Of a stretch of DNA of 64,000 nucleotides, positions 3,998 through 51,619 are shown piece after piece. This DNA is from Eubacterium sp. (GTDB lineage Bacteria; Bacillota; Clostridia; Oscillospirales; Acutalibacteraceae), in assembly GCA_029258375.1 (NCBI GenBank), contig JARHZA010000001.1, positions 663,564 through 727,563 on the forward strand, in the 5' to 3' direction. Position 1 is the first letter of the stretch; the number at the start of each line of letters is the position of its first letter. Below the pieces are notes generated by a model. The model was not told where the DNA came from, made no database searches, and saw only the letters and a list, made by a program, of their open reading frames with translations. The translations under genes and the position numbers were made by a program.

Positions 3998-4258
3998 GAC
4001 AAAAAAAGACTTGCCCCTTATCTAAGGGACAAGTCATTATAACCTGCGGTACCACCCTAATTTTTGCATCATCTGAGCAAACACTCTTTGAGCCTATAAC
4101 GTTGCTCGAACCGTCTACACCTACTGCAATTTCAGCATAGCCACTCAGAAGGGAACTTCGCTTTTATTTATCATACAAAACTTACAGCCAATGGTTTTGC
4201 TCTCTTAATGCCTCTTAAAAGTTACTTTTCTTCGTCACAGTGTTTAATTTAATAAAGT
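3998..4258 (-). promoter_or_regulatory. T-box riboswitch controlling pheST
   Basis: Read on the minus strand, the leader carries the conserved T-box core AGGGTGGTACCGCAGG at 4058-4043, which pairs with the uncharged tRNA acceptor end. It is followed by a terminator hairpin (4035-4008) and seven U residues. Upstream (about 4240-4140) are Stem I-like elements, including AAGAGGCATTAAGAGAGC and a GAAGTTCCCTTC segment with UUC triplets suited to a Phe specifier. I could not fix the specifier register by eye. Uncharged tRNA-Phe is expected to favour antitermination. The 5' boundary is approximate. Confidence 0.93.
4001..4035 (-). terminator. T-box regulated terminator before pheS
   Basis: GACTTGTCCC pairs with GGGGCAAGTC (one G-U) around a short loop, followed by seven T residues on the minus strand. 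It overlaps the 3' side of the T-box antiterminator region, so the two structures are mutually exclusive. Confidence 0.92.
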
Positions 4259-48542: not shown

Positions 48543-48570
48543 TTGACAAAATTTATATATCTGCTATAAT
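48543..48570 (+). promoter_or_regulatory. sigma-A promoter of tRNA-fMet
   Basis: A perfect TTGACA (48543-48548) and perfect TATAAT (48565-48570) are 16 bases apart, 21 bases before the mature tRNA 5' end. Confidence 0.93.
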
Positions 48571-48591: not shown

Positions 48592-48667
48592 CGCGGGGTA
48601 GAGCAGTTGGAAGCTCGTCGGGCTCATAACCCGGAGGTCGCAGGTTCGAGTCCTGCCTCCGCAACCA
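48592..48667 (+). tRNA. initiator tRNA-fMet (CAT)
   Basis: A full cloverleaf can be drawn: acceptor arm CGCGGGG with CTCCGCA, anticodon loop CTCATAA, T arm CGCAGGTTCGAGTCCTGC and encoded CCA. The C1:A72 mismatch and three G-C pairs in the anticodon stem (GGG...CCC) mark it as the initiator, not elongator, tRNA. Confidence 0.97.
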
Positions 48668-48669
48668 TT

Positions 48670-48698
48670 AAACCACCTTTTTAAAGGTGGTTTTTCTT
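48670..48698 (+). terminator. intrinsic terminator after tRNA-fMet
   Basis: AAACCACCTTT and AAAGGTGGTTT pair around TT, followed by TTCTTTT, making the tRNA a single-gene unit. Confidence 0.92.
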
Positions 48699-48849
48699 TT
48701 ATATTAAACTTCTTAATTTTAAATGTTTAAGGCAAAATTATATCTTTATCTAATACGATAAGTATGTTTTATTTATATAAATAAAACGAATATTTTACTA
48801 AAAAACTTTTTAAAATAGAAGAAAATTTCAATTATATATAAGATAAAAA

Positions 48850-48983
48850 AGTTATTTGAGGTGGAAGATTTCGTACAGTCCACACGCCGATGGTATGACA
48901 GGGATTTGCCCGAGAGATGCAGGAGATTTGTACGCCTGCCAAATAACTATTTTTTGCACCTTGAGTAATCAAGGTGCTTTTTT
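48850..48983 (+). ncRNA. candidate structured RNA of unknown class
   Basis: No ORF explains this segment, which is more GC-rich than its surroundings. AGTTATTTG (48850) pairs perfectly with CAAATAACT (48940-48948). Inside, GTGG (48861) can pair with CCAC (48880), GGG (48901) with CCC (48909), and GCAGG (48919) with CCTGC (48935). The loop of the first contains CGTACA (48872) and the loop of the last contains TGTACG (48929), which are perfectly complementary, suggesting a kissing loop. A terminator follows. I cannot match it to a named RNA family. It could be a small RNA or a riboswitch, but it is terminated before any ORF. Upstream to 48700 I see only AT-rich sequence. Confidence 0.6.
48956..48983 (+). 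terminator. intrinsic terminator of the candidate RNA
   Basis: GCACCTTGA and TCAAGGTGC form a perfect 9-bp stem around GTAA, followed by six T residues. Confidence 0.94.
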
Positions 48984-49307
48984 ATATCCAAAATAAGAAA
49001 AGAAAAAAGGATAAAAACAATAGATATATTTTTTACGTATATTATTATAAGGTTTGCTGATAAGTTTGAAAATGTAGGTTGATTTTGAATCTATTTTTAT
49101 GATTTTAATAAATTGCTTTATTGTATGATAATAAGTACTCTGATAGTGAAAATGGACTATAAATCGGTTAAATATTTTAGATTTATTGCAACCAACTAAT
49201 TATAATGCTACACTAATAATAGATAGTTGAAGAAAAATATTTGATTTTATATGTTTTAAAAGACTATAAAATATTTTATACAGAGTTGTTAGAGAAAAGA
49301 GCAGAAT
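48984..49307. other. AT-rich gap with no recognised gene
   Basis: No convincing ORF, tRNA or hairpin was seen. A possible promoter, TTGCAA (49186-49191) and TACACT (49209-49214) with 17-base spacing, could serve the small acidic ORF at 49308. Confidence 0.4.
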
Positions 49308-49469
49308 ATGGTTCAAAAATTATTAGATGATGAATTTGATGACGATGATGTTGCGTTCAATGATAATTTTGATATTGATAAATTGATTGAAAGTTTTGCA
49401 AGAGACAAAGAAAAAATGATAAAAGCACAGGAAAAAACAAAAGAATTGCTAAAGCAATTAGAAAAATAA
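49308..49469 (+). CDS. very small acidic ORF, possibly the 5' part of a frameshifted gene
   Basis: 53 codons from ATG. The first 30 residues are strongly acidic (LLDDEFDDDDVAFNDNFDID), and the rest is a Lys/Glu-rich helix ending KELLKQLEK. The ribosome site is weak (GAGAAAAGAGCAG). I do not recognise it. An overlapping frame continues as coding-like sequence from the A-run at 49462, so a one-base indel may have split a longer protein of about 90 residues. Confidence 0.4.
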   Translation: MVQKLLDDEFDDDDVAFNDNFDIDKLIESFARDKEKMIKAQEKTKELLKQLEK

Positions 49470-50140: not shown

Positions 50141-51619
50141 ATGGTGAAGTCAAAAAAAGCGATTAGTTTGATTCTTTCAGTAGTTATGCTTATGAGCACA
50201 TTTGCAGGATTTAGCGTAACTGCGAATGCAGCAAGTGATGGCGCTTGGCACAAAAACAGTGTAGGCTGGTGGTATACTGTTTCTAATGGTTCTTATTATA
50301 AGGATAAAAAAGTAGAAATAAACGGCCAAACATATTACTTTAACGAACAAGGTTATATGATAACTGGTTGGAGATACATAAATAATAATTGGTATTGGTT
50401 TGATGCATCTGGAGCAATGGTAACAGGTTGGCGCTATATCAATGGTGATTGGTATTGGTTCAGAGATAATGGAGCTATGATCACAGGCTGGAGATATATC
50501 AACAACAATTGGTATTGGTTTAAAGATAATGGCGCAATGATTACAGGCTGGAAAGAAATAAATGGATCAACATATTATTTCCATAAAAGTGGGGCAATGG
50601 CTACAGACGAAGTTATCGATAACTCTTATGTTGATGAAAATGGAATTTTAAGACCAGAAATGTCAAGTAAATGGGTTGTTGAAAATGGCAAATGGAGATA
50701 TAAATATCATGATGGTTCTTATGCTAAAGACGGCTTTGTAAAAATTGGCGATTATGAATTTGCATTTGATACTGACGGATATATGCTTGTTGGTTTCCAA
50801 AAAGTAAATGAAAAATATTATTATTTTGATAATTCTGGTTATATGCAATATGGTTGGTTTACTATTGATAATAACCAACGCTATTTCCAAGAAGATGGAA
50901 CAATGGCAACCGATACTATGATTGGCGATAAATATGTTGATGAAAATGGTGTGTATATTGCTAATCAATGGGTGAAAGATGAAAAGGGTTTAACTTACCG
51001 TTTTGGCAATGGAACTCACCCAAATGAAGGATTTAATGATATTGAAGGATACACATATTATTTTGATAATGAAGGATATGTTATCTTTGGTTGGAAAGAA
51101 ATAGATAATAATAAATATTACTTCAATGAATTAGGTCATATGATAAGAGGTTGGCAGTTTATTGATAACAATTGGTATCATTTTGATTCAAACGGTTTAA
51201 TGGAAACTGGTTGGCAAACCATCAATGATAAAAAATATTACTTCTATAATGACGGTTCTATGGCACGTGATACTTATATAGAAGGACATTATGTTGATAA
51301 AGATGGTGTATGTCAACCTGATGAACCAAGTGGTCATGGCCCTTTGACAGAAGAACAAAAGAAATGGGTTGTTGACAATTATTTTGGTCAATTCCCAAAA
51401 TATGGTGCACACAAAAGTTTTGAAATTATAGAACAATATGATGATAACGGTCTTGATATGATGGCACCATTAACTCAAGATAATTATAAACAACGTGTTG
51501 CAGATCTTATAGATGGTATTGAAACTGATGCTAAGAATTGTAGTACAGTTCGTTATAGATTTTATGAAAAAGATGGAGAAACTATTTTAAAATATCGTTT
51601 GACTTATGATTTTTCTTAA
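50141..51619 (+). CDS. secreted protein with glucan/choline-binding-type repeats
   Basis: 492 residues. Signal peptide: KKAISLILSVVMLMSTFAGF, cleaved near TANAA. From about residue 40 to 400 it consists of about 20-residue aromatic repeats of the CW_binding_1 type (GWRYINNNWYWFDASGAMVT), with three longer spacers containing YVDENG or YVDKDG. The last 90 residues (from GPLTEEQKKWVVDNYF) form a different, repeat-free domain I do not recognise. No catalytic enzyme domain is evident, so it may bind glycans or teichoic acids and present the C-terminal domain. The ATG follows GTGGAGGT. It is monocistronic. Confidence 0.85.
   Translation: MVKSKKAISLILSVVMLMSTFAGFSVTANAASDGAWHKNSVGWWYTVSNGSYYKDKKVEINGQTYYFNEQGYMITGWRYINNNWYWFDASGAMVTGWRYINGDWYWFRDNGAMITGWRYINNNWYWFKDNGAMITGWKEINGSTYYFHKSGAMATDEVIDNSYVDENGILRPEMSSKWVVENGKWRYKYHDGSYAKDGFVKIGDYEFAFDTDGYMLVGFQKVNEKYYYFDNSGYMQYGWFTIDNNQRYFQEDGTMATDTMIGDKYVDENGVYIANQWVKDEKGLTYRFGNGTHPNEGFNDIEGYTYYFDNEGYVIFGWKEIDNNKYYFNELGHMIRGWQFIDNNWYHFDSNGLMETGWQTINDKKYYFYNDGSMARDTYIEGHYVDKDGVCQPDEPSGHGPLTEEQKKWVVDNYFGQFPKYGAHKSFEIIEQYDDNGLDMMAPLTQDNYKQRVADLIDGIETDAKNCSTVRYRFYEKDGETILKYRLTYDFS
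50366..50605 (+). repeat. four tandem 60-bp coding repeats
   Basis: Units starting at 50366, 50426, 50486 and 50546 each encode 20 residues beginning GW(R/K)xI and ending with a G-A-M-x-T segment. The first three are closest; synonymous differences show they are not a very recent expansion. Confidence 0.85.

Follow-up and report, generated by a model that had tools for sequence, protein, structure and literature searches.

What is the compact, GC-rich segment that lies on the plus strand beside a tRNA-fMet gene in a 64-kb stretch of Eubacterium sp. DNA (contig JARHZA010000001.1, positions 663,564 to 727,563; hereafter the window, to which all coordinates refer), and what does it serve? The original prediction, made from the letters alone, described an independent structured RNA with a possible kissing loop, not assignable to a known class. 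A scan with Rfam release 15 did assign it: the element is a skipping-rope RNA (RF02924; 53.6 bits, gathering cut-off 36.7; E 5.7e-10 over the 64 kb), matched over the whole model (1-80 of 80) and the sole such match in the 1.7-Mb genome. The prediction had named an Rfam hit as its own refutation, and its idea of a new class is refuted. The family itself is an ordinary, known one that Rfam types as a plain small RNA (sRNA) gene; what is new is its coupling to predicted phage ribonucleases (RNases). From sequence comparison, we put a probability of roughly 0.7 on skipping-rope RNA being the antitoxin or immunity RNA of PBECR2 and PBECR3 nucleases, in a type III-like arrangement of which the window copy would be an orphan.

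The features that had drawn attention to the element are all present (Table 1): the 9-bp closing stem (P1), the complementary loop hexamers CGTACA and TGTACG, and the internal hairpins, the first of which, given as GTGG/CCAC, is really GTGGA/TCCAC and thus one pair longer. At 47.5% GC, the element lies above both its flanks (13.3% over 150 nt upstream, 20.6% over 315 nt downstream) and the window as a whole (32.1%), and the 134-nt stretch including the terminator folds more stably than 200 of 200 dinucleotide shuffles (z -3.8). A 46-aa frame with a TTG start crosses the element; nothing was found in its favor, and a coding role was dropped, as the prediction of a non-coding segment would have it. 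The RNA also has the terminator of its own that had been claimed, with no open reading frame (ORF) in between, and no plus-strand ORF of at least 40 aa starts between the RNA and position 49308. Since the terminator stands immediately 3' of the RNA, the placement is not that of a riboswitch or T-box leader.

We then aligned 29 relatives of the 97-nt subtype, chosen by length and motif from 87 extracted RNAs. These 87 comprise 85 distinct sequences, are part of the RF02924 hits in the genomes searched and include two probable non-members (L008 and L009; 25.7 and 25.4 bits); two of the 29 rows fall below the Rfam cut-off (L278, 27.3 bits; the third copy in G649:C70, 32.3 bits). Across P1-P4 and the pseudoknot, 98.6% of 806 pair cells were paired, with 128 double-sided cells and double-sided change at 18 of 28 pairs, values reached by none of 500 shuffles, and sliding the partners by 1-3 columns as a control lowered pairing to 30-44%. 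Covarying changes between the two hexamers were looked for in particular. The six kissing pairs were paired in 99.4% of 171 cells, with 34 double-sided cells, and no shuffle (0 of 500) equaled their pairing, double-sided cells or covariation score; the number of pairs with double-sided change was matched by 4 of 500 shuffles, and the count of further pair types was not above shuffles. CGT/ACG is nearly constant in this helix, three positions co-vary, and the window copy forms all six pairs. The P2:P4 kissing loop is real. A covariation-supported pseudoknot of the skipping-rope family has already been published in the Rfam 14 paper (PMC7779021), and a figure legend of that paper suggests that its pk_1 is this same P2:P4 helix.

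A switch had also been suggested, in which CGTACA/TGTACG plus AGG/CCT would form one long stem to the exclusion of the hairpins. This alternative stem shows no double-sided change in the 29 sequences and is broken at one pair in 8 of them, at a column where P4 is kept by compensation; the mutually exclusive switch was rejected for lack of support. We regard it as extremely improbable that the element is a ligand-binding or switching regulatory RNA: it is structured, and the long stem appears in its nested minimum-energy fold, but that stem fails where P4 is compensated, no gene precedes the terminator, and the recurrent partner of the relatives lies upstream. Ligand binding, raised in the original prediction, gained no support; overall the observation itself was confirmed and its interpretation partly supported.

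The upstream partner emerged from the neighborhoods of the relatives, where one protein family recurs as the first same-strand ORF upstream of the RNA (21 of 41), mostly at a distance of 30-44 nt. The next protein family recurs in only 4 of the 41 neighborhoods, so that none fits the place of an immunity protein gene beside the toxin. The locus had been placed between tRNA-fMet and accessory small ORFs; tRNA-fMet does adjoin, but it is the upstream nuclease gene and not the downstream small ORFs that recurs with the RNA. All six members tested with Pfam were PBECR2 (PF18810) or PBECR3 (PF18812), phage nucleases of the Barnase-EndoU-ColicinE5/D-RelE-like kind. In one of them (L345) a Phage_Mu_F domain (PF04233, E 2.8e-11) precedes PF18810 (E 1.6e-13) at the N-terminus; the other five lacked Phage_Mu_F, and neither PF04233 nor PF18810 was found in the window. 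Solo nucleases of 125 aa form a two-gene unit with the RNA. The PDB, searched by sequence, yielded no more than two weak matches, both to Maf (E 0.42 and 0.52), and a toxin-fold comparison returned no ToxN among the 50 matches listed. Iyer and colleagues (PMC5512222) predicted that PBECR nucleases are RNases which occur alone or fused to MuF and portal proteins and which probably enter the phage particle and are injected; the terms 'RNA antitoxin', 'structured RNA' and 'noncoding RNA' do not occur in that text. At two further loci without PBECR (L319 and L294), the frame just upstream of the RNA ends in QTEHTQKYLA.. and QTEYTQKYLA.., perhaps representing another partner family.

Twenty-one of these neighborhoods had supplied the 23 proteins of our own nuclease profile, for which the two best matches per RNA were listed, and the profile is partly circular. 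To avoid this circularity, we used the Pfam and Rfam models for a converse search, in which RF02924, PF18810 and PF18812 were each run against 391 genomes of the class, taken as one set from their identical selection and shared labels, and the coordinates intersected. An RNA lay 38-115 nt downstream of the domain end, on the same strand, for 40 of 44 PF18810 hits. Of the four exceptions (G516, G619, G442 and G595), the first three were rescanned: the RF02924 scan, which used stricter filters, had missed an RNA in G516 that scores 40.5 bits; G619 has a match at the expected place, below the cut-off at 22.2 bits; and no RNA was seen in G442. Hits without RNA thus went from 4 to 2 of 44, counting the sub-cut-off match. 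For PF18812, many of whose hits are genes shared with the PF18810 list, 36 of 54 hits have the RNA (33 of 37 in open frames of at most 200 aa; 0 of 7 in frames above 600 aa). The seven long frames, with no RNA within 250 nt, are in G729, G683, G462:C10, G431, G463, G390:C17 and G718. Seen from the RNA, the 600 nt upstream contain a PBECR2/3 hit for 46 of 73 copies, which leaves 27 without one. The RNA occurs in 51 genomes, PBECR2/3 in 50 and both in 36 (Fisher p 1.5e-27, uncorrected for kinship), and the RNA type tracks the nuclease type in a comparison that retained 43 of the 44 pairs. RNA without RNase is common, and RNase without RNA rare.

Nuclease-linked RNAs of all types carry a sigma-70-like promoter (at least 11 of 12 positions matched, -10 box 5-35 nt before the RNA) in 44 of 55 cases, against 1 of 55 when shuffled, and a terminator in 49 of 55 against 9 (one mononucleotide shuffle per sequence). 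In the 97-nt type, 21 rows show a clear promoter; in 14 of these a nuclease-type stop codon falls between the boxes, 6 nt before the -10 box, and the -35 box TTTACA is then usually found within the final nuclease codons (Leu-Tyr-Lys). Orphan RNAs (n = 32) keep the promoter in 10 cases and the terminator in 20; the orphans L261, L293 and L314 retain a C-terminal stub that contains the promoter. Because the RNA as a rule begins about 35 nt or less past the end of the nuclease gene and has a terminator, it might be taken for a 3'-derived sRNA that base-pairs with the nuclease mRNA, as in type I systems, or for a cis element of that mRNA. We hold this to be very unlikely: the RNA is on the same strand and not antisense, it has a separate promoter, and it is a pseudoknotted fold that compensatory changes conserve.

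Viral loci show the same linkage. Viral contigs searched by protein yielded 11 loci, which one phage record brought to 12; in each of the 12 an RF02924 match above the cut-off stands behind the nuclease, the gap from stop codon to RNA being 20-33 nt in 10 of 12 (the stop in L409 taken from the match end, that in L415 not placed). Four of the loci (L408-L411) share an identical RNA and are not independent. In one of these (L411:5485-7356), nuclease and RNA are separated by an ORF of 623 aa that runs in the opposite direction and probably encodes a transposase, about 110 nt behind the stop codon. The longer loci read in the order terminase, portal, head protein with nuclease, RNA, scaffold and capsid, where the gene names are our reading of the ORFs except for the MuF-PBECR2 fusion in L345. 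A search starting from the RNA, by a loose degenerate DNA pattern (at least 240 loci) filtered with our own covariance model, found the RNA in 17 of the 240 and a nuclease-like frame upstream in 11 of these 17 (8 of 11 viral, 3 of 6 genomic); within the 17, the L064 frame is a 37-residue piece, L217 offers only 30 nt upstream, and L054 also belongs to the protein-found set. BLAST of one PBECR2 protein matched one phage record and no plasmid, one PBECR3 protein matched no phage record, and BLAST with the RNA matched nothing in phage and plasmid records.

Two phage-like loci count against a nuclease antidote. L072 (35-1232) and L044 (reverse strand, 24-1445) hold the RNA and no PBECR that our own profile could see; in L072, the upstream ORF reads as the end of a MuF-like head protein, with scaffold and capsid downstream. 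Together with the general position of the phage RNA between a Mu-F-like gene and a scaffold- or capsid-like gene (again by our reading of the ORFs), L072, and perhaps L044, would suit RNA and nuclease being mere traveling companions, with the RNA serving another phage function, such as head assembly, in the capsid operon. There is little likelihood of this, since the two-gene unit persists with 125-aa solo nucleases and RNA type tracks nuclease type; the two loci could also be eroded pairs.

An RNA antitoxin would be expected to leave the pattern seen here: a toxin-like RNase is rarely found without the RNA, the RNA is often found without the RNase, and a pseudoknotted RNA occupies the place of the immunity gene. 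PBECR2/3 would be small RNases with a RelE/colicin-like fold, solo in bacterial chromosomes or, in phages, C-terminal to a Mu-F-like head protein, and the RNA, locked by the P2:P4 kissing loop, would bind the nuclease and block its activity. A lysogen, with late genes off and the RNA promoter on, or another host would be shielded from the enzyme, even where this may be delivered with phage DNA. The linkage, alike in genomes and viral loci, would also suit an RNA that takes part in the action of the nuclease, as guide, cofactor or preferred substrate of an RNA-protein enzyme and not as its inhibitor, and there is a precedent in AbiF, which binds its non-coding RNA and is discussed as a Cas13 ancestor (PMC12373285). 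We judge such a role improbable, as the asymmetry between lone RNAs (27 of 73) and lone nucleases (4, then 2, of 44) is that expected of an antitoxin, and a promoter that is mostly its own lets the RNA exceed the nuclease.

Among known systems, the type III toxin-antitoxin modules (ToxIN, CptIN, TenpIN) likewise set a pseudoknotted RNA beside a predicted endoribonuclease gene. Their layout (PMC5086642) is a repeat-array RNA, a terminator and the toxin under one promoter. In contrast, the skipping-rope pairs have the toxin first and the RNA behind it with its own promoter, the type III order not being found; the toxin family is PBECR, with RelE-like matches; and the RNA is usually a single copy, without a tandem array except for three copies in G649:C70 and two in L114. 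These close copies (L308:7356-7681 for G649:C70; L114:344-565) stand behind one nuclease frame and differ in their kissing-loop letters, and full complementarity between the loop strands is lost in the second copy of L114. The three in G649 lie in a row, preceded by a single promoter-like site and followed by a terminator. AbiF and its abiF-motif RNA (RCd22, RF03085) differ in having the RNA upstream, in two repeats, and a HEPN-type toxin. In the MuF polymorphic toxins of temperate phages, a head protein bears a variable toxin domain which, in the view of the authors of PMC5576092, is delivered together with the DNA, and the family has been described with immunity proteins (PMC12226406). The same N-terminal Phage_Mu_F arrangement was found in one relative, L345, but it is skipping-rope RNA that holds the immunity-gene place.

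A bolder version of the antitoxin idea, possible though doubtful, is that skipping-rope RNAs are tRNA-shaped decoys in the active site of a tRNA-cutting phage RNase. A tRNA cloverleaf has junction linkers of 2/1/4/0 nt and an elbow made by contact of the first and last arm loops; the Rfam structure line of RF02924 gives the same 2/1/4/0 linkers, and its first and last arm loops are in contact. These likenesses, and the tRNA cutting of known BECR RNases such as colicins D and E5, are the grounds for the idea. Among 95 distinct sequences, a 5-bp P2 follows after exactly 2 nt in 58, 1 nt in 19 and 3 nt in 4 (shorter stems uncounted), a 5-bp P4 abuts P1 in 83, and both P2 at 2 nt and an abutting P4 occur in 52. 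Unlike the tRNA elbow, the kissing helix has six pairs; no 7-nt anticodon-like loop was recognized in the aligned sequences, and neither ARAGORN nor Rfam called a tRNA on the element, the only call being the neighboring tRNA-Met. As decoys, the cloverleaf-like four-way junction and reinforced elbow would occupy the active site; the phage would package the RNase in its head and encode the RNA behind it on a lysogen-active promoter, sparing lysogens; and bacteria would maintain the solo pairs as toxin-antitoxin modules, and orphan RNAs like the window copy beside tRNA-fMet for immunity against phages.

The window copy shares the closing stem, three arms, pseudoknot and downstream terminator of its family; it differs in its 97-nt subtype with a longer P3 region, in being an orphan and in lacking a recognizable promoter (its best promoter-like match is within chance, being equaled in 185 of 200 shuffles). 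PF18810 and PF18812 profile searches found no PBECR2/3 in the genome of the window, and no nuclease frame lies upstream of the RNA. L256, a relative whose kissing loop is identical, offers a collinear alignment for roughly 50 nt upstream of the RNA, which match its nuclease 3' end and promoter as well as only 8 of 500 dinucleotide shuffles do; with two other relatives the signal was weak (37 of 500) or absent (466 of 500). The case for an eroded gene is made from the L256 alignment only, because tblastn of nucleases on the flank gave weak and mostly misplaced or antisense matches, the best (E 0.009) inside another gene. The enzyme gene of this copy has apparently been lost, which would make the copy an immunity RNA that was retained or else a relic; as the RNA itself is intact, it would have been kept for immunity or orphaned recently.

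Table 1. Positions of the skipping-rope RNA, its parts and adjoining features in the window.
Feature	Position	Strand	Evidence or remarks
Skipping-rope RNA (RF02924, 97-nt subtype)	48850-48948	+	cmscan E 5.7e-10; covariation in 29 relatives
P1 closing stem, 5' strand	48850-48858	+	pairs with 48940-48948; 9/9 pairs; double-sided changes in 8/9 columns
P1 closing stem, 3' strand	48940-48948	+	same covariation count as 5' strand
P2 hairpin, GTGGA/TCCAC	48861-48883	+	loop contains CGTACA; 98.6% of cells paired
Kissing-loop strand 1, CGTACA	48872-48877	+	pairs with 48929-48934
P3 inner hairpin, GGG/CCC	48901-48911	+	97.6% of cells paired; double-sided changes at 2/3 pairs
P4 hairpin, GCAGG/CCTGC	48919-48939	+	abuts P1; 99.3% of cells paired; double-sided changes at 3/5 pairs
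Kissing-loop strand 2, TGTACG	48929-48934	+	pairs with 48872-48877
Rho-independent terminator of the RNA	48956-48983	+	stem-loop 48956-48977; stem of 9 bp, loop of 4, then T tail
Possible 3' remnant of an eroded, lost PBECR2 gene with decayed RNA promoter	48797-48846	+	suggested by local alignment; AT-rich
tRNA-Met (CAT), tRNA-fMet	48592-48667	+	promoter-like site 48543-48570; terminator 48670-48693

A perfect 22-bp palindrome (48766-48787) lies between the tRNA-fMet terminator and the RNA. In 3 of 80 genomes of the genus (G079:C17, G011:C39 and G074:C13) the 3' half of tRNA-fMet is duplicated about 3.6 kb away, which suggests that this gene is an integration hotspot in the genus; no second copy of the 3' half was found in the window. 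Window positions 48700-49300 gave no blastn match (E 0.01) to the DNA around the tRNA-fMet genes of 18 relatives, represented by flanks of at most 1.5 kb per side and much less in some. Elsewhere, the window holds a T-box leader (4022-4247, minus strand; 129 bits against 93) and a 492-aa ORF (50141-51619, plus strand) with a signal-like start and repeated segments similar to choline-binding cell-wall repeats.

The literature searched, which left preprints, most subscription papers and the original description of skipping-rope RNA (reportedly of 2017) outside its scope, held no link between this RNA and PBECR; the passages covered on skipping-rope RNA mention no nuclease partner, and the papers found, seen in part, describe no antidote of PBECR nucleases. 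Priority for the RNA-nuclease link is not certain. With it, a known motif that had no assigned function acquires a frequent partner and a role that can be tested, and the link, if true, would explain skipping-rope RNA and the antidote of PBECR at once. It would add to the type III idea a class of RNA-based immunity in which the gene order is reversed and the toxin family unrelated, and it would point to a way for lysogens to survive an RNase that phages may inject along with their DNA.
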